IMG/VR virus record: IMGVR_UViG_3300044993_000395
Coordinates: 1-32,245 of that record
Direction: 5' to 3' (one strand)
DNA from: a virus
DNA: 32,245 nucleotides
In this document: positions 4,458 to 32,245 of the stretch, in pieces
Position numbering within the stretch: position 1 is the first letter of the stretch
Layout of the letters: each line of letters starts with the position of its first letter
Notes under the pieces: generated by a model
Databases searched by the model: none
What the model saw: only the letters and a program-made list of their open reading frames with translations
Told to the model about the DNA's origin: nothing
Position numbers and translations under genes: made by a program

Positions 4458-4681
4458 AGCATTGTATTTATTTTTAAGTTAATTAATTCTGCTGTTAGAC
4501 TAACTAAAGATGCAAAGATTATTGAAGTAAACTAATGTATATTGATAATTAGCAAACCTAATAAAGTTAACTAAAAACTAGTGCATTTAAGACATAAATT
4601 TATTTTTATCTAATATTCAATAAAATCCAAAACTAAAATGTTAATCTAAGCTAAAGAAATAATGGTTAATATTATCTCCAT
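4445..4681 (-). CDS. Small two-helix membrane protein visible only with TAG as sense
   Basis: With TAG read as Gln an open frame of 78 aa runs from the ATG at 4681, inside the 3' end of the sigma-like gene, to TAA at 4445, inside the next gene. It has an N-terminal hydrophobic segment (MEIILTIISL, then INILVLDFI) and a second one (LTLLGLLIINI and FTSIIFASLVSLTAELI), with a KINLCLKC loop between them. Four TAG codons lie in the frame, which is why standard-code scanning misses it. It fills an otherwise empty 180-bp gap with the overlapping junctions seen throughout this operon, which argues that it is real. A lysis-associated or membrane-modifying role is possible, but nothing identifies it. 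Confidence 0.6.
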
Positions 4682-5183
4682 GTTTACTTATCATTATTTT
4701 TTTTAATGTTTTTATGTTTTTTTTATAGTTGCGGTATACATAAGAGTAGTCTTTATTTATTAGAATTGAAATCTCTTTGAAAGTACAGTTGCCTAATATT
4801 TTGCATTTTAGTATTGCTTCATCAATGAAATTAAAAGCAGGACTTGTTATCTCTTTGTATATTATGTAATCTAATTTTTCTTGATGCAAAACATATTCCA
4901 TGTTTGATATGGTTGCCTTGTTTGCTATATTTGCTATATTTACAGTATCTTCATGTGTCTTTAATTCATTTAGATAAATGTTTTTTGCTGACATAAGTAA
5001 ATAATTTGTGTTTATTTCTTTTGTCTTATTTTTTTCTAGTATTAAATATGTTTTCAAATAAGCTTCATGTAACAAATCAATTGCTTTTTGTGTGTTTACT
5101 TTATTATGTTTTGCAATTGATTTAACTAAGTAATCATATTTTTGATTTACTATTTGATTTAGCTTTATGATATTTGCGTTCAA
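4641..5183 (-). CDS. Sigma-70-like RNA polymerase sigma factor
   Basis: A 180-aa protein with no TAG codons. Residues about 30-90 resemble sigma region 2 (KAIDLLHEAYLKTYLIL, then TNYLLMSAKNIYLNELK), and residues about 130-165 resemble the region-4 helix-turn-helix (NCTFKEISILINKDYSYVY, then RNYKKNIKTLKKIM). The size fits short phage or ECF-type sigma factors. It lies in the operon with terS and terL; similar small sigma-like genes beside terminase are common in phages of Bacteroidetes (family knowledge). It may direct host polymerase to phage promoters, with the repeated leaders at 7020, 17440 and 26054 as obvious candidates. A non-sigma helix-turn-helix regulator is the alternative. Confidence 0.6.
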   Translation of the reverse strand: MNANIIKLNQIVNQKYDYLVKSIAKHNKVNTQKAIDLLHEAYLKTYLILEKNKTKEINTNYLLMSAKNIYLNELKTHEDTVNIANIANKATISNMEYVLHQEKLDYIIYKEITSPAFNFIDEAILKCKILGNCTFKEISILINKDYSYVYRNYKKNIKTLKKIMISKHGDNINHYFFSLD

Positions 5184-5424
5184 TGTATTCTAATGATTTT
5201 TTTAAGCTTGCACATAATTCATATTTTTCCAATTGAATCTATCTATCATACACGTTTTCAAAACTATTAAGAAATTCATTAATGTTAAAACTATCATCTA
5301 TTATCATAGTTTTTATTATTTCTTTAATTATATGTTCGTCAAATCCATGATATTTGACGCAATATAATAAAAGTTTTTTATATGAAATATCCTCAATTGG
5401 AATATTATATTTATTGTTCAACAT
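5134..5424 (-). CDS. Hypothetical helical protein upstream of the sigma-like gene
   Basis: A 96-aa protein with one TAG (Gln 62) that extends it from 61 aa to a TGA at 5134, overlapping the start of the sigma-like gene by 50 bp. The N-terminal part (IPIEDISYKKLLLYCVKYHG, then EHIIKEIIKTMI) and the basic C-terminal part (ASLKKSLEYIERKYHKAK) look fully helical. No family is recognised. Co-translation with the sigma-like protein suggests a shared role in regulation, for example as a partner or antagonist, but this is inference only. Confidence 0.65.
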
Positions 5425-5803
5425 AAAATTTTTCTAAATATTTTCTTGCTTTTATTGGATCATAATACTCTTGTATATAAGTGAAAAAACTATCTCTGGG
5501 TTTATACCCGGGGATAGGTATATTATATGTACCACCTAACTATTCCACAGAATCCATGTTTTTTATTTTAAAAAGTCTAAAAGACCTATTAGGTGCCTAA
5601 GAAACAGAAGTTCCAGCTAAATGATAACCCCTTAAATATAAACCACCTTTATATCTGCCCAAAACCAAAGGAACTACACTTCTTATGGTAATAATCTTAC
5701 CACCTGCAGTTCTATGATTAATTACCAATATCAACCCTGCTTTTATTGCTTCTTCCAACACTGCATTAGTAGGTTTATAAACTTCTGCTTTCTTAAGTTT
5801 CAT
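5411..5803 (-). CDS. Hypothetical beta-rich protein, possibly WYL-like
   Basis: A 130-aa protein. Two TAG codons are read through (after TSVS and after DSVE), taking it from 68 aa to a TAA at 5411. The core looks like short beta strands: AGLILVINHRTAGGKIITIR, VVPLVLGRYKGGLYLRGYH and SFRLFKIKNMDSVE. The order (a hydrophobic strand, PLVLGRYKG, LRGYHLAG, RLFKI) faintly recalls WYL-type ligand-binding domains, which follow a similar strand pattern, but the protein is short and lacks a DNA-binding part. It ends inside the start of the next gene. Treat the function as unknown. Confidence 0.6.
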
Positions 5804-6741: not shown

Positions 6742-6974
6742 ACTACTTTATTTTCATTATTATTTTTTTTATAAGTTTGGTAATCCCATGATGACAACCC
6801 AAATAAACCTGAAGCAAAAGTTAGTAAACCTCCAACTGCAAACTGGAATTGTTCATGTGTTGGAAACCCAAATATTAATATTAAAACTGCCCATAAAGTA
6901 ACCCAACCAGCAGTTCTTTTTGTAGACCCTGAACCATCAGGATTAGAAAATAAATCTTTTATAAACTGTTTCAT
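6738..6974 (-). CDS. Holin-like two-helix membrane protein
   Basis: A 78-aa protein with a polar N terminus (MKQFIKDLFSNPDGSGSTKR), two transmembrane segments (about 22-38, GWVTLWAVLILIFGFP; about 43-63, FQFAVGGLLTFASGLFGLS) and a short charged tail (TYKKNNNENK). Size, topology and the 4-bp overlap with the lysin-like gene fit a small phage holin that permeabilises the inner membrane. There are no TAG codons. It is the first gene after the repeat-bearing leader 6975-7276, so it is probably the promoter-proximal gene of the lysis/packaging operon. Confidence 0.75.
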   Translation of the reverse strand: MKQFIKDLFSNPDGSGSTKRTAGWVTLWAVLILIFGFPTHEQFQFAVGGLLTFASGLFGLSSWDYQTYKKNNNENKVV

Positions 6975-7019
6975 TTTTTTTATTGTTTTTTGTTGTTTAA
7001 ACCATCCAGGTTTGATTAT

Positions 7020-7250
7020 TTTTTTTATTTTGATATAAACTATAGGTTAAAACACTTTTTGCAATGTAGGTACCTTAAAATTCATTTATGCAAATATGAA
7101 CATTTGTTCATATGGTCTTGACCCCAATTTAAAAGTTTTATTATATCAGGATAGAGCTTAAAGCAAATTTTATACAAAATTTATATATTATTATATTAAG
7201 AAAATATATCCAAATTTTGCATTAAGTTCAAATATAACTTATAAAATGTT
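7020..7250 (-). repeat. Leader repeat copy 1, upstream of the lysis/packaging operon
   Basis: The 302-bp gap 6975-7276 has no gene. Its centre is a segment that recurs at 17440-17640 and 26054-26262. Read on the minus strand it contains, in order, the 50-bp quasi-palindrome (7219-7172), a GCTTTAAGCTC stretch, an ATATGAAC-4-GTTCATAT hairpin, and a conserved block TTTGCATAAATGAATTTTAA followed by GGTACCTACATTGCAAAAAG. The TTTG and TACATTGC boxes, about 22 bp apart, loosely match the Bacteroidetes -33/-7 pattern (TTTG, TAnnTTTG). In this orientation it points at the holin gene. Promoter or regulated leader is inferred. Confidence 0.8.
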
Positions 7251-7276
7251 TTTATGGGAATGTTCATAGTTACATT

Positions 7277-7558
7277 TTAGTTTTTACGGATTTCAGTTCT
7301 TAGTTCAAAAATAGCTTGTGATAAACTGACTTGACTATCATTAAGTTTTTCAATTGCAAATTCCAGTTTATCTAACACTTTTTCAAATTTATCTGTGTTT
7401 TGATTGATTGACTCAATTTCTTTTTTGAGTAGTGCAGTTTCTTTTTCTTGATCTTTTTTCATGTTTATCATATCATTGTTTATTTTAATATATAAACTTG
7501 CCAAACCACCTAAAAAAGTAATAATAGTGATTATATCAATAATATTTAGATTTTCCAT
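7277..7558 (-). CDS. Membrane-anchored coiled-coil protein, possible lysis accessory
   Basis: A 93-aa protein with an N-terminal hydrophobic helix (IIDIITIITFLGGLASLYI, about 5-23) followed by a long coiled coil (NMKKDQEKETALLKKEIESI, KFEKVLDKLEFAIEKLND). The layout resembles short phage membrane/coiled-coil proteins such as haemolysin XhlA-type or spanin-like partners. It has no TAG codons. It is the last gene of the large structural operon and precedes the leader and the holin, which supports a lysis role, but no diagnostic motif is present. Confidence 0.6.
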   Translation of the reverse strand: MENLNIIDIITIITFLGGLASLYIKINNDMINMKKDQEKETALLKKEIESINQNTDKFEKVLDKLEFAIEKLNDSQVSLSQAIFELRTEIRKN

Positions 7559-16499: not shown

Positions 16500-17384
16500 T
16501 TATTTTATATTTTTACTTTTATTTTTTAAAATGCTTAGTAAAACATTTTGATCATTTGCCTGTTTTACCTCTTTTTTAGTTAAAACTGCTGGTTCACCAC
16601 CTATTTTCTTAATATCTTCTTTTATTTTTGATAACTCAGTTTTTAATTGTTGTAACTCCTTCTTAAGTTCATCAATTAAATCATCATTAGGTGTGTTTGT
16701 TGGATTTTTTGCTGTCTGAATTATACCATTAACCACAGTTATAACTGTTCCATCACTAAAAGTGTATTCACCATCTGGTAATGGGGTCATATCGGCCTCA
16801 TACCATATCTCAAATGTTTGGTCATCCCAAACTACCATAGTGCCGTCTTCTAAACTTGCAACTATTTGACTTTGTTTTAGTTTTTTACTCATATCTGTTT
16901 TTATTAAATTTACTACTGCTTCAATTGAAAATCCTTTGAATTTGCTTAAAAACTCATTGTCTATCTTAATAGAAGGTTTAACTGTGACCATAAATGTACC
17001 TTCAGGTATTAAATCTGTGGCCTGATCGGCCTTAACTAAATAAGATTCAACTATGGTTCCATTAACTTTCCTATTGCTGTCATGTTCTAAATTAAGATTC
17101 TTATGAAAACTATTTTCAAAAAACTTATCTCTTAATTGTTTTATTACTTCTTTACTATACCTTATGTAAAAGTAACTCCCATCTTCTGCTTTTCTCAATA
17201 TCAATTGATTAGGAATCAATATTGGACCTGTTAAATACTTAAAATCCTCAGAAGCATGAAATAATTTTACTTTATTCTGATGCGCAATAAACTCCCTTTC
17301 TATTGCTGGTTCACTAACTAAACTTAAAGCATAAATGCCTTCTGTATCATCCTGAAGAACTACATCATATATTGGATAAACCAT
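16500..17384 (-). CDS. Prohead protease with C-terminal scaffold (XkdF-like)
   Basis: A 294-aa protein without TAG codons. The N terminus MVYPIYDVVLQDDTEGIYAL followed by SLVSEPAIEREFI (21-33) fits the XkdF-like prohead serine protease family. Residues about 60-165 continue the protease domain (SYFYIRYSKEVIKQLRDKF, NLNLEHDSNRKVNG, GTFMVTVKPSIKID, KFKGFSIEAVVNL). NLNLEHD places a His in the position typical of this class, and FKGFSIEAV a Ser. The C-terminal third has a TPLPDGEYTFSDGTVITVVN beta segment and a scaffold-like coiled coil (DELKKELQQLKTELSKIKED). Gene order protease-capsid supports the call. Expected to mature the procapsid. Confidence 0.75.
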   Translation of the reverse strand: MVYPIYDVVLQDDTEGIYALSLVSEPAIEREFIAHQNKVKLFHASEDFKYLTGPILIPNQLILRKAEDGSYFYIRYSKEVIKQLRDKFFENSFHKNLNLEHDSNRKVNGTIVESYLVKADQATDLIPEGTFMVTVKPSIKIDNEFLSKFKGFSIEAVVNLIKTDMSKKLKQSQIVASLEDGTMVVWDDQTFEIWYEADMTPLPDGEYTFSDGTVITVVNGIIQTAKNPTNTPNDDLIDELKKELQQLKTELSKIKEDIKKIGGEPAVLTKKEVKQANDQNVLLSILKNKSKNIK

Positions 17385-17675
17385 ATTTATATAACTGTTT
17401 TTTATATCTGATTATTCAACTGACCACATTAAAAACTTTATTATAACTTAGATAGCTTGAAGCAAATTTTACGTAAAAATCGCAAACCTGCAAGATGCAA
17501 CCATGTTATCCAGATAATTTAATAGTTTTTAAATGGGTGTCAAGACCATATGAACATTTATTCATATTTGCATAAATGAATTTTAAGGTACCTACATTGC
17601 AAAAAGTATTTTAACCTATATAAAATATCAAATAATAAATTATTGTGTCCCAGAAGTGTCCTAAACGCAAAATTA
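17385..17675. repeat. Leader repeat copy 2, reverse orientation relative to flanking genes
   Basis: This 291-bp gap has no gene. The stretch 17440-17640 shares the hairpin ATATGAA-6-TTCATAT and the block TTTGCATAAATGAATTTTAA plus GGTACCTACATTGCAAAAAG with copies 1 and 3. Here the block lies on the + strand, pointing into the tape-measure 3' end and away from the protease start at 17384. The 50-bp quasi-palindrome is missing, and the GAAGCAAATTTTACG stretch beside it is inverted relative to the core. It lies between the tape-measure stop and the capsid operon start, so a promoter or processing role for the capsid operon is likely. Confidence 0.75.
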
Positions 17676-20600
17676 TCATATTAAAGCATTAGAATCAATA
17701 ACCTGAACTCTGTTTAATCCTTCTGCAACATCTACTACAGAAAGGAAGACTTTTGGTTGTATAATTTGGTTTGCATCAATTGTTTTTAATCCTTCAAAAT
17801 TAGGAGTTAAAACTCCACCTGTTTCATAACTTTTATCCGCATTAATAAAATCCAAAATTGGTTTATACTTTGCAGTTGACCTTTTGTTTATTACATATTC
17901 ACCACCTTCTACTTCTATGTTGTTAAACCTTCCTGTTCCTCTTATTCCACCTTCTGCATGACTAGGACCCTCTAATATACCACCTTCCTCAAGAGGCCTA
18001 ACTGCATCTATTATAGATACAACTAAACCAACTCCAGCAGCTACTGCTGCAGTTGTCAAAGCTACAGTTACAGGAGCAGCTACACCACCCTCTGCAGCGG
18101 CCTTACTAACTGCAGCTAAAGCATAGGCCAATGCTATAGCAGATTGAGCAGCAACTATAATCTTTGAAATCCGCTCCTGCTTCTTTGCATTTGCCTCCCG
18201 CTCCTTCTCCAACTTCTGCTCCTCCTCCTTCAACTTATTTATAGACTCAATCTGATTCTCAATTGCTTCCCTGTTCTTATCCCTTAACGCATTCTCCCGC
18301 TCTAATTGAGATATTATCTCTTCCCTCCTTGAACCCTCTGCAGACACCAATAAACTCTGCAACGTCTTTATCCTATCCTCAACTGACCTCAAACTTTCCT
18401 CCAACCTCTCCTTCTCCTTATCAAAAGTTTTTAATTTTTCTCTTATTCTAACTAATTCATTTTCAATTGCTTGACCATTAAGAGTTATAATTAAGTTTAT
18501 TGCATCTTTGATTGATTTTCCTAGGTCTTCAATACTTTTGGTTAGGAATTCTTTTTGGGATTCTGTTATGTTTTTGAATAATGATTCTGCTGCGTCACCT
18601 ATTATGTTGCTGAAAGCATTATTAGGGTCTAGTAGGTTTCTTAGATTATCTAAGAAAGATTTAGTTAAGGTTTCAGCTCCTTCTTTACCTTTTTGTTTTA
18701 AGATTTTTATGTCTATGTTGAATCTTAGTTTTGTTGCTTCTATTTCTTTTTGTATTATTTTGTCTTGTAAGTCTAAAAGTTCAACTTGTTTTTGATATTC
18801 TTCATCTGAGATTAAACTTAAGGCCTTTGCATTTTCTAATTCTAATCTTTTTAAGGTTAAGATTTCACCTTTTACATCTAAGTCATTAAGTGATTCTTCT
18901 AAGTTTTTGATTAGTAATTCATTTTCTAATTCAAGTTCTTTGTTTAATTGTTTTTGTCTTTCAGTTTTATCTGCAAATACACCTTCAGTTGAATTTAGAT
19001 TTTTACCAATTGTTTCATATAGAAATACTTCTTCTTTTAATACGTTTTTTGCTAATTCATTTTCTAAAGCAAGTTTTTTAGAAAGTTCATTGTTGGTTTC
19101 TTTTATGCTTATTTGTTGTTCAATTTCCCTATCAAATTGTTCTTTTTTTAGTTTATTTATTGCAATTTGATTTGCAATTTCAGTTGAATTAATTTCTTGT
19201 TTTAATTCATTAATTTTATTTAGTTCATCAACATTAATTATGTTAAGTTTTTGTTTTTCTTCTAATACTTTTAGTTCTAATAATAATCCATTTAATGTTG
19301 TTTTATTCAACTGCTCTTGAAGTGCTATTTTCTCTGAATATAAGTTAGTTTCTAAAGATAATCTTGTTTGTAATTCTGCTTTAATTATATTTAACTGCGA
19401 AATTTCCTTTCTAAATGTCTCTTCTAATATAGCTCTGTTGTTTGATATTCTTTTATTTTGCAAACTTATTAACAAAGTCTCTTTTTCCGCAAGTTTATTT
19501 GCTAATTCAATTTCATCTTCTGCGGTAAGTTTATTTGCTTTTTTTAATTTATTTAAGGTTTCAATTCTTTTGTTAAGTATTTCTAATTCAAGTGACCCTA
19601 TTTGATTTTCTAAAAAAGATCTTTGCTTAGCTCCTATTATTTCACTATTTAATAACTCTTCTAATAACGCTTTTTTCCTTGTTAATCTTGCTTCTTCTTG
19701 AGCACCAAGTCTTTTTATGTTTTCGGCCTCTTGTTGAGCAATTAGTTGATTTAAAGTTATGTTTTTGTTTCTGTAATTATTTGCTAATTCCAATAATTTA
19801 TTTATCTGTTCTTGATTTAAACCTAATTGCTTACTTGATGAAACAACATCATCTACTTTTAACTGAAAAAATTTTATTAATTCACCACCATAATCTAATT
19901 CATAGTTGAAATTCTTTAATTCATCTACCCATATTTTTAATCCATCTGCAACAACTTCATTTACTTGCTTTCTATTTTTAACTATTGCATCCAGTTCTTT
20001 TTCAATTTGCAAAATATCTAATTTTGCGGCCTCTATTGTAAGTTCCTGTTTTTTATTTATATCTAAAAAAGCATTGTTTGCTAAAGTGTTATAAGTATTT
20101 GCAAGTGCACTTAATGACTTATTTAATTGCTCAACTAATTTTAACTCTTTTTCCAATTGGGCATTTGCCAAGGACCTATTATAGGCCTCCTGGGCCTTTG
20201 TTAATGAACCTAAAGATTGTGTAAAAGCAACAATAGCATCAAACCCTGCAGTTACTTTTTCTAAAAAACTAGTCAATCCCCCTGAAAACTTAATAAAAAT
20301 TAAAGCAGCTGCAGTTAAGGCCCCACCTAATGCTATGGTTAAAGCAGCACCCTTAACTTTTGCAATATTTAAAGCTATTTGTGCCTCTGTTTGCTTATTT
20401 GTTGCTAAAGTAACAGCAGTTAAATATAATTTTTGAGCAACCAAAGAAGAATTATAAATTGATTCAGCTGTATTCCGAATACTTTGTATTGCCAAATAAG
20501 ACCGAGCTGCCCTTTCTAATACTGCAATTGAATCTGCTGCTCCTTCATTAGATAATTGAATTAATTGATTTGTATTTATTAAACTTTCTGCTATTTGACC

Positions 20601-24970: not shown

Positions 24971-25031
24971 ATTTATATAACAAAATTAGAACTATTTTTT
25001 GTTATATATATATAATAATAAAAACCATGTT
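24971..25031. promoter_or_regulatory. 61-bp divergent promoter region with a 12-bp inverted repeat
   Basis: The only divergent gene pair in the central part of the window starts at 24970 (leftward) and 25032 (rightward). Between them TATATAACAAAA (24974-24985) and TTTTGTTATATA (24997-25008) form a perfect 12-bp inverted repeat with an 11-bp spacer. The arms contain TTTG on each strand, the -33 box of Bacteroidetes promoters, so two face-to-face or back-to-back promoters or one operator could be present. Roles are inferred. Confidence 0.6.
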
Positions 25032-25544: not shown

Positions 25545-26047
25545 ATACAAACTTAATTTACTTAATTGGGTTTAAACACAAACTAAGTTTAAACCCTAAA
25601 ACTTAGTTGCAATTTATAATCCGTAAAATTGCAAAAATTGAATATAATCATGTTGGTGTACTCTACTTTGACCAAGACCTGCAAATGTAGTTGGTTTCTA
25701 ATGCAACATCCAAGGGTGTTAAATCACAAACCATACAAGATATTATAATTCAAGGTCACTTTGATGAATATCAGATATTCATTAAAAAAACACCAATTAC
25801 AAATCTGAATCAATGCTTTCTTAGAATCAAAAACATTGAACATAAGAAATATGACTATAGAGGACTACTATAGGACCAACTGCTTCTTAATACCATTGGA
25901 ATATAGTCCAAAAAAGAATCAGATGCAACACAAACTAAATTCTATTGCTATGAATCTGCTGCATATATCTTTGGTTTCAAAAATGCCTTTAAGGTAAAAC
26001 CAAAGGACTTTATGTCCCACTTTCAAAAAGTATATTTTAAAGTATAA
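25538..26047 (+). CDS. Permuted papain-fold (YiiX/NlpC-P60-like) peptidase or amidase
   Basis: A 169-aa protein with four TAG=Gln codons. The His comes first (IEYNHVGVLYFDQDLQMQL, His about residue 42) and the Cys later (TKFYCYESAAYIFGF, Cys about residue 139), the circularly permuted order seen in YiiX-like NlpC/P60 relatives. The middle segment IKNIEHKKYDYRGLLQDQLL matches the usual YDY-G-L motif before the catalytic Cys. Such enzymes are common in phages of Bacteroidetes, near tail genes, and probably cut peptidoglycan or other amide bonds. The start overlaps the upstream stop by 7 bp. Residues are read from the sequence; the catalytic role is by family analogy. Confidence 0.6.
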
Positions 26048-26053
26048 TGAAGA

Positions 26054-26262
26054 TGTTAAGCAAAATTTGGATATATTTTCTTAATATATAATATATAAAT
26101 TTTGTATATTTAATTTGCTTTAAGCTCTACCTTGATATAATAAAACTTTTAAATTAGGGTAAAGCATATGAAAAAATGTTCATATTTGCATAAATGAATT
26201 TTAAGGTACCTACATCGCAAAAAGTGTTTTAACCTATAGTTTATATCAAAATAAAAAAAATA
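26054..26262 (+). repeat. Leader repeat copy 3, upstream of the rightward pair
   Basis: Between 26048 and 26273 there is no gene. The stretch carries the 50-bp quasi-palindrome (26061-26110), a GCTTTAAGCTCTACC stretch, the hairpin ATATGAA-6-TTCATAT and the block TTTGCATAAATGAATTTTAA plus GGTACCTACATCGCAAAAAG. It matches copy 1 along its whole length, on the + strand and pointing at the gene that starts at 26274. Both full copies therefore lie a similar distance upstream of a gene cluster in the same relative orientation, which supports a promoter or leader role. Confidence 0.8.
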
Positions 26263-26273
26263 ATTCAACCAGG

Positions 26274-26750
26274 ATGATTAAAATCACAAAAACAAGTATT
26301 ATTGCTATTATTGCCATAGTAAGTTTAATAAGTTAGGCAAGTTAGGCAAGTTATGTAATTTAGACTTAGAAACCTGAGATTAGGGAAGTTTATAAAACGG
26401 ATACTATTTAGGTAAATAAATATTTGAAAACAGATACAATTAGAATCAAAGAAAAAGCAATACCCACTAAAACTGTTATATACAAAGTTGATACAGTATT
26501 AAGAGACAAGGTAATTCAAGATACCCTGATTCTTAATGTGCATAAGACCTTAAGAAACTTAACAATAAGCAAAATTGACACAAAAGGTTTAGTCTACCAA
26601 CAACATTACACAACCCCAATTTTATCAACTATCTTAATAGACCACAAAGGCAATGTAAAAATCAAAAAGTATAAAGCTCTTAAATAGTCAGCTGCAATCC
26701 TACTTACTGTAGGTACAGCAGTTTAGACTTTTAAGAAAATAAAAGGTTAA
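26274..26750 (+). CDS. Signal-anchored hypothetical protein, seven TAG codons
   Basis: A 158-aa protein. The N terminus MIKITKTSIIAIIAIVSLIS is a basic start plus a hydrophobic segment, either a signal peptide or an anchor, followed by QASQAS encoded by two copies of a 9-bp repeat (TAGGCAAGT). The body alternates Thr/Ile/Lys (VYKTDTI, YLKTDTIRIKEKAIP, TVIYKVDTV), giving short beta-like repeats. The end (AAILLTVGTAVQTFKKIKG) is a second hydrophobic patch. Seven TAG codons lie in frame, the densest in the rightward cluster. A spanin-like or envelope protein is possible from topology only. Confidence 0.6.
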
Positions 26751-27252: not shown

Positions 27253-27297
27253 TTTTCAGACTTTTAAGAAACTAAAAGTTAGTTTAAAAAAAAAAAA

Positions 27298-27319
27298 TCC
27301 ATTAGATTGCTCTAATGGA
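27298..27319. terminator. Bidirectional hairpin between convergent genes (copy 1)
   Basis: TCCATTAGA-TTGC-TCTAATGGA is a perfect 9-bp stem with a 4-nt loop, preceded by a run of A (T on the other strand). It lies between the rightward gene ending at 27252 and the leftward gene ending at 27349. An identical copy occurs at 27778-27799. Confidence 0.8.
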
Positions 27320-27348
27320 CCTAATCTTAATGAAATTTATATACCATA

Positions 27349-27568
27349 TCAATGTCTTTTATAATTTTGTGCATTTTTAATAATAACTTCAGGTTTATGA
27401 AACCCTGCAATACCACCAATTGAATCCCAATCATTTGCAATCCAATTAAAATCTTTTTGCAAACTTATACTGATTCTTGGATTAGCAGCAATAACTGCTC
27501 TTCTTTTTTTTTTCTTCAATTCTTGCCAATTCAAATTCTGCTGCCAAACTTTTTAAATTGATTTTCAT
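27349..27568 (-). CDS. Small hypothetical gene broken or frameshifted at an A10 run
   Basis: The frame from the ATG at 27568 reads MKINLKSLAAEFELARIEEK then ends shortly after an A10 run (coding strand; 27504-27513). The frame that begins after the run reads RRAVIAANPRISISLQKDFN, IANDWDSIGGIAGFHKPEVI and IKNAQNYKRH to a TGA at 27349, and has only a poor TTG start of its own. Joining them needs a +1 shift, or one A fewer in the run, and would give about 72 aa. The two halves read like one small helical protein. It may be a frameshifted gene, polymerase slippage, or an assembly error. Confidence 0.5.
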
Positions 27569-27777
27569 ATTTTTTTAATTTTAAATTTTATAATACAAAG
27601 ATAAAACGTTTTTTTTTAACAAAATAATTTTTTTTAAAAATAGGTGTTTTTACTTATTTAGACTTTTAAGAAATAAAAAGTTTATTTTTACACCAGCATT
27701 TATAATACAAAGATAAGCAAAATTTTAATACAAAAAATAAAAAAATAAAAATAAGTGTTTTTACTTAGTAAAAAAAA
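27569..27777. repeat. AT-rich segment with imperfect direct repeats
   Basis: No gene is visible between 27569 and 27831. TTATAATACAAAGATAA occurs near 27590 and again near 27700, and a TAAGTGTTTTTACTTA-type stretch near 27644 and again near 27752, so a unit of about 110 bp has been duplicated imperfectly. TTTAGACTTTTAAGAAAT-type sequence between the two also occurs upstream of the copy-1 hairpin. The segment ends in the copy-2 hairpin. Probable terminator/promoter region. Confidence 0.6.
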
Positions 27778-27799
27778 TCCATTAGATTGCTCTAATGGA
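27778..27799. terminator. Hairpin, identical to the one at 27298 (copy 2)
   Basis: The same TCCATTAGA / TCTAATGGA stem with TTGC loop, with the A run in front and GGACCTAA after it, as in copy 1. It lies between the leftward gene ending at 27884 and the small gene starting at 27568, so it probably ends the replication-gene transcript. Confidence 0.75.
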
Positions 27800-27831
27800 C
27801 CTAACACACATATAACAAAACTTACACAATT

Positions 27832-27909
27832 TTATTTACCGAGGCATTCAATGCAGCAGCAATAATCGGGATGTTGTTCTTTATTAGAAGTCCTATTCAT
27901 CAAGGTCAT
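27832..27909 (-). CDS. Possible Cys-rich microprotein
   Basis: A 25-aa open frame overlaps the end of the 204-aa gene and then extends past it: MTLMNRTSNKEQHPDYCCCI then ECLGK. Four Cys in CCCIEC could bind zinc. It has its own ATG, ends in TAA and lies in the -1 frame relative to its neighbour. It may be a genuine small protein or an accident of overlap; there is little to decide this from one sequence. Confidence 0.3.
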   Translation of the reverse strand: MTLMNRTSNKEQHPDYCCCIECLGK

Positions 27910-31738: not shown

Positions 31739-31756
31739 ATTATATTTCCTTAAAAG

Positions 31757-31806
31757 CAAAATTTGGATATATTTTCTTAATATATAATATATAAATTTTG
31801 TATATT
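31757..31806. repeat. 50-bp quasi-palindromic element, copy at the replication gene
   Basis: CAAAATTTGGATATATTTTC followed by TTAATATATAATATATAAAT and TTTGTATATT. The ends CAAAATTT / AAATTTTG form an inverted repeat. It lies about 20 bp upstream of the ATG of the primase-helicase gene and is near-identical to 26061-26110 and 31945-31994; 7172-7219 carries the reverse complement with a 1-bp insertion. Probable promoter/operator. Confidence 0.75.
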
Positions 31807-31832
31807 AAAGTTGTTTTATCTTTATTTTTTGA

Positions 31833-31857
31833 AAGGATACTTTTTAAAAGTATCCTT
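31833..31857. terminator. Hairpin in the 31807-31944 spacer
   Basis: AAGGATAC / GTATCCTT with A/T-rich inner pairs gives a strong stem of up to 12 bp around one central base. There is no clean T run on either strand, so it may end transcription of the gene to its right or stabilise an RNA end. A 28-codon frame at 31881 reading toward the 31945 element is not convincing as a gene, and nothing else is visible in the spacer. Confidence 0.5.
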
Positions 31858-31944
31858 CAAATTTTAAACCTTTTTAAATTTATGGAGTTAGAAAAATTTG
31901 TTCCTTCCATAAAAGTATTTTATAACCTGTTATTGAGGTTGATA

Positions 31945-31994
31945 CAAAATTTGGATATATTTTCTTAATATATAATATATAAATTTTGTATATT
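31945..31994. repeat. 50-bp quasi-palindromic element, second copy near the edge
   Basis: An exact or near-exact repeat of the 31757-31806 element, 138 bp further on in the same orientation. It lies just past the stop of the partial gene at 32010 and upstream of the primase-helicase gene. Two copies in direct orientation could be paired regulator sites. Confidence 0.75.
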
Positions 31995-32009
31995 TATTTT
32001 GTTTTTTTA

Positions 32010-32245
32010 TTAATAAAGGTTTGCTAATTCTATTGCTAAATCCAGCATAATAGATTTATATTCTTTGTATTCATATCCTAATCCTAAATTCTAATTTAAA
32101 TCATAAATACCAAGTTCAATTAGTTTGGTTTTATATTTATCTAAAATTTGTTGCATTTCAGGTTTAAATTCAATATTAAGTTCTAAACAAAGTTCTTTAG
32201 GACTTATGCAGTTAAATTCTAAAATTTCAATGTAATAATATATTT
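32010..32245 (-). CDS. Hypothetical protein, 5' end outside the window
   Basis: The C-terminal part of a leftward gene, open to the window edge and ending in TAA at 32010. The visible 77 residues include one TAG (NQNLGLG) and read YYIEILEFNCISPKELCLEL, IEFKPEMQQILDKYKTKLIE and LGYEYKEYKSIMLDLAIEL, mostly helical. No family recognised. It is followed by the two regulatory repeats of the replication gene. Confidence 0.6.

Follow-up and report, generated by a model that had tools for sequence, protein, structure and literature searches.

We consider it somewhat likely that the related intergenic segments of this virus genome are copies of a dispersed cassette for initiating transcription, with a block that would bind a regulator or sigma factor; the virus is a TAG-recoded phage whose host probably belongs to the Bacteroidota. 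The window, that is, the whole stretch analyzed, is an entire IMG/VR virus record of 32,245 bases with 27% GC. Read in their own direction, copies 1 and 3 have the order U, A, P, B, where A is an AT-rich imperfect palindrome of ~65 bp, P is a promoter-like pair (TTTGCTTTAAGCT-N-TATAAT), and B is a block of ~74 bp (see the table). The three related segments reported in the initial annotation are present: TTTGCATAAATGAATTTTAAGGTACC occurs exactly three times, at 7069-7094 (−), 17567-17592 (+), and 26185-26210 (+), whereas 100 shuffles, with three or fewer mismatches permitted, averaged 0.00 occurrences. Copies 1 and 3 were described as similar throughout, and they are, with 88% identity over about 260-270 columns (93% over 217 bp) and each facing a gene start. 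Copy 3 reaches into coding sequence on both sides, covering the end of one gene and passing the next gene's start codon. For copy 2, the aligned length is 133 bp, with 85-86% identity. It was called reversed and partial, which is correct for its block B, reversed and covering the right half of the cassette only, but a separate, correctly oriented P makes the locus a composite. A search of the genome for further copies revealed two partial ones (31740-31818 and 31907-32006) that had been overlooked. Both lie beside the helicase gene and represent the left half of the cassette, with A and U modules and without block B. A therefore occurs four times, twice in the full copies and twice without P and B.

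Coordinates and strands of the cassette copies, their modules, and the sigma-factor-like gene
Feature	Position	Strand	Remarks
Cassette copy 1 (U-A-P-B)	6980..7276	−	88-93% identity to copy 3; between a gene ending at 7277 and a holin-like gene starting at 6974
Cassette copy 2 (block B and degraded P remnant)	17507..17639	+	Opposite to the surrounding − strand genes
Cassette copy 3 (U-A-P-B)	26026..26292	+	88-93% identity to copy 1; neighbors are a gene ending at 26047 and a gene starting at 26274
A module, copy 1	7156..7220	−	
A module, copy 3	26058..26122	+	AT-rich imperfect palindrome
Solitary A module	31740..31818	+	A itself at 31754-31818; adjoins the start of the helicase gene, which is on the − strand
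Solitary U-A module	31907..32006	+	A itself at 31942-32006; upstream of the helicase gene
P of copy 1	7136..7167	−	TTTGCTTTAAGCTCTATCCTGATATAATAAAA
P of copy 2	17424..17478	−	TTTGCTTCAAGCTATCTAAGTTATAATAAAG; faces the head operon starting at 17384
P of copy 3	26114..26145	+	TTTGCTTTAAGCTCTACCTTGATATAATAAAA
Block B, copy 1	7041..7114	−	CATATGAAC...TTTTAACCTATA; palindromes ATATGAAN6TTCATAT and TTCATNTNTGCANANATGAA
Block B, copy 2	17547..17620	+	70/74 identical to copy 1
Block B, copy 3	26165..26238	+	
ECF-type sigma-factor-like gene	4641..5183	−	Candidate regulator; TIGR02937, Pfam

Under the standard code, 53% of the record lies in stop-free stretches of at least 100 codons; when TAG is read as glutamine, the figure is 91%, whereas the same test changes the coverage of the distant relatives by 5 points or less. 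This jump identifies the record as a TAG-recoded tailed phage, and TAG is almost certainly a sense codon in the window (1-32245). Gene calling with TAG as glutamine is needed before intergenic signals can be judged, as the standard code produces many false gaps. A tRNA search of the record was empty and yielded no suppressor tRNA. The genes present include those for the terminase, portal, tape-measure, endolysin, single-strand-binding, and helicase proteins; of the proteins scanned, none was recognized as an immunity repressor or integrase. The best named relative of the capsid protein belongs to the flavobacterial phage Nonlabens P12024L (25% identity), and the endolysin relatives reside chiefly in Bacteroides and crAss-like phages. 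Based on these two proteins, the host is likely to be a member of the Bacteroidota.

Using genes called with the TAG-as-glutamine code, we compared the intergenic gaps pairwise. Four of the seven gaps longer than 200 bp (6975-7276, 17385-17675, 26048-26273, and 31742-32011) hold all or part of the cassette, and in all four the downstream gene runs in the same direction. The gaps without it are the tandem-repeat array at the contig end (1-223); 1088-1570, where convergent units meet and a tandem pair of similar terminator-like hairpins lies (within 1118-1331); and 27253-27883, after the helicase/single-strand-binding unit, with two identical ones. The latter are 35 bases long, at 27290-27324 and 27770-27804, 480 bases apart and 3' of the single-strand-binding gene. 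The cassette had been placed at every major operon border, but one such border is without it: the 61 bp at 24971-25031 from which the tail operon and the + strand genes diverge. This border contains 12-base inverted arms (TATATAACAAAA/TTTTGTTATATA), possibly a different divergent promoter. Terminator-like sites were absent just upstream of copy 1 (− strand) and copy 3 (+ strand), so these copies may be internal promoters rather than operon borders. An invertible segment between the copies was also considered and is not supported, given that the B blocks of copies 2 and 3 are direct repeats and the genes flanking copy 2 are co-directional. Misassembly at the repeats is unlikely, as the exact shared stretches are shorter than 50 bases.

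The P element, with the consensus TTTGCTTTAAGCTCTA(T/C)C(C/T)TGATATAATAAAA, is conserved upstream of three gene blocks, namely the lysis/sigma/terminase block, the head block, and the + strand block at 26274. Its TATAAT lies at 7140, 17440, and 26141 in copies 1, 2, and 3, respectively. It is oriented toward the gene served in all three copies and adjoins block B in each, with A present at two of them. A genome of 27% GC contains many TATAAT-like strings, and generic promoter scans of the window showed no excess over shuffles. We performed a held-out test with a matrix trained on the P elements of copies 1 and 3 alone and with 15 simulated genomes. The P of copy 2 scored 20.6, ranking next after the training sites, versus a simulated maximum of 16.8. 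Its recognition by this matrix indicates that P is a reproducible unit in the correct place and orientation. In the same test, outward-facing P-like sites across A (7216, +; 31915, −) scored at or near the chance level and were not relied on for that reason; a weak P-like site on the − strand of 31907..32006, facing the helicase gene, was likewise at chance level. The −10 TATAAT of P resembles a housekeeping-type site, unlike typical ECF sites. The Bacteroidota promoter consensus is TTG-N17-23-TAnnTTTG; as the consensus of the presumed host group, it had no match inside any cassette, and the sole match near one (17668-17698) overlaps the end of the upstream gene.

Block B consists of two overlapping palindromes, ATATGAAN6TTCATAT and TTCATNTNTGCANANATGAA, which have the middle TTCAT arm in common; neither occurs elsewhere in the window. 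All three copies have the same ATATGAA/TTCATAT arms, and only the six intervening bases vary, as the initial annotation had noted. Its conserved block of about 50 bp exists as well, but with different dimensions: the longest stretch invariant in the three copies is a 37-bp core (TTCATATTTGCATAAATGAATTTTAAGGTACCTACAT), within ~74 bp overall. At copy 2, the intact P (−) faces the head operon, and the adjacent B (+) is reversed and carries the decayed remnant of a second P; the orientation of the copies toward the genes that they serve thus does not extend to this block. Between copies 2 and 1, B is 95% identical (70/74) and its flanks are 77% identical (30/39; Fisher p = 0.010, an optimistic value because the core edges were picked by eye from the alignment). 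The comparison suggests that B is under selection even where it would be unable to lead a neighboring transcript.

These features may be combined as follows. P would be the start site for RNA polymerase, and A would serve as an AT-rich upstream activating element. B might function as a double-stranded DNA site with the dyad half-sites ATGAA/TTCAT/ATGAA, which is the weakest step. B would be bound by a regulator or a sigma holoenzyme of the phage, which would thereby coordinate the gene blocks, with B acting near P in either orientation. It is rather improbable that B is specifically an orientation-independent DNA control site with shared-arm dyads, coupling the transcription units via the phage ECF-type sigma factor or another partner protein.

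The initial annotation proposed a shared late-promoter or leader-RNA system. A shared transcription-control region remains the best reading, and the RNA half is not supported. In a 5' leader RNA, B would form mutually exclusive hairpins as an attenuator or switch; TTCAT could pair with the ATGAA on either side, and in copies 1 and 3 B would lie within the 5' untranslated region of a P transcript. The predicted folds, however, were no better than those of shuffled sequences (z-scores of −1.5 for copy 1, −0.05 for copy 3, and −0.4 and +0.4 for the strands of copy 2). In the three-copy alignment, 8 of 72 pair cells were broken and none was compensated, three sequences offering little power to detect covariation, and an Rfam search returned no match. 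Furthermore, B in copy 2 is not downstream of the intact P, and the retention of its reversed sequence at 95% against 77% in the flanks argues for a DNA site and against a leader RNA, which we regard as very unlikely. An unlikely alternative, albeit a stronger one, is that the phage ECF-like sigma factor uses B as its late promoter (TTTGCAT ... TACCTACAT), forming tandem early/late promoters with P. The genome encodes an ECF-like sigma gene, in copies 1 and 3 B lies just before the start of the gene, and its TTTGC-to-TAC distance is similar to that of P. Phage-encoded sigma factors or polymerases generally use a small number of promoters, which are intergenic repeats with good conservation (PMC4331800). 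Nevertheless, in copy 2 block B is aimed at the 3' end of an opposite-strand gene and opposes all local transcription, making it ill-suited to a simple one-way late promoter. Other late blocks are not preceded by a B-like motif, and the 74 bp conserved here exceed what a sigma site would be expected to span.

The high identity of the copies, their sharp edges, their occurrence in both orientations, and the presence of A and B also apart from each other could reflect recent duplications or mobile non-coding modules spread by recombination, with homology for module shuffling as their only role. T4-type phages reportedly carry mobile regulatory cassettes (promoter early stem-loops; Arbiol et al. 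2010), and a part in module shuffling has been proposed for cassettes of that type. The present cassette resembles these in arrangement, as promoter-like and palindromic units dispersed between genes, the promoter here being predicted. The T4 cassettes bear host sigma-70 early promoters, whereas the blocks served here are mainly late genes. Shuffling as the only role appears improbable, since every copy occupies an intergenic gap, B is conserved above its own flanks, and the P of copy 2 is retained in the correct orientation. Conservation among the in-genome copies is partly attributable to recent duplication.

The initial annotation's designation of the 4641-5183 product as sigma-like is reasonable, and the product is a probable ECF-type sigma factor, judged from profile matches. 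It matched TIGR02937 (sigma70-ECF) over residues 8-163 with E = 1.2e-5, at 25 bits, below the cut-off of 42.9, and matched Pfam Sigma70_r2 with E = 0.086; the match to a Bacteroidota ECF family was weaker than that to TIGR02937. A two-sequence profile combining it with the Nonlabens protein retrieved a solved sigma factor with E = 0.038. In the distant relative Nonlabens phage P12024L, an annotated sigma region-2 protein is encoded a few genes before terL. An AlphaFold model built without an alignment was unusable (pLDDT 46). The gene belongs to the unit that would be transcribed from copy 1, and its product is a candidate user of block B or P. The same unit encodes a 130-aa protein with a WYL domain (5411-5803; Pfam E = 8.5e-5), which is possibly a phage regulator.

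Protein searches recovered distant relatives only, at ~25% identity for the capsid and ~30% for the terminase. The endolysin relatives (41-44%) lie in contigs otherwise unrelated, the helicase search gave no relatives, and a terminase scan of genome contigs found none. The closest relatives thus reach ~25-44% at single proteins, in searched sets that may omit close relatives. The cassette is absent from the seven distant relatives, and exact DNA scans of the IMG/VR and GTDB genomes with block B gave no match. The best cassette match among the distant relatives (G007) falls in apparent coding sequence and reads as chance. Because no closer relative was found, the conservation arguments rest on copies within one genome, and because no relative carries the cassette, we infer its function.

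Arrangements of this kind are known in phages; the sequence is new, in a poorly studied phage group. The timing of gene expression in stop-codon-recoded phages is, to our knowledge, poorly understood. The cassette and the sigma-like gene provide a concrete candidate promoter set for a phage without a cultured close relative. In phiEco32 and 7-11, the phage-sigma motifs are ~9-12 bp long, and Xp10 has a pair of 43-bp promoter repeats (PMC4331800); by this precedent, low-copy, highly conserved intergenic phage repeats are promoters. A low-copy conserved repeat upstream of structural and late blocks, a trait of phage-sigma late promoters, is also found here. As in those phages, the conserved intergenic repeats are few and precede structural blocks, and a sigma-like protein is encoded; unlike theirs, the repeat is 200-300 bp long, modular, palindromic, and once reversed, and the sigma role is putative. 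Mycobacteriophage stoperators (PMC9283540) are short, asymmetric, and numerous. They share with the cassette a genome-wide scatter of regulator-site-like repeats between genes and differ from its three palindrome-bearing copies, which stand in a genome whose scanned proteins include no identified immunity repressor or integrase.

Separately, five tandem 32-base units occupy positions 1-168, at the very end of the contig, each containing the perfect 17-base palindrome TATAGTTTAAAACTATA. They represent either origin iterons or a repeat at which the assembly stopped.
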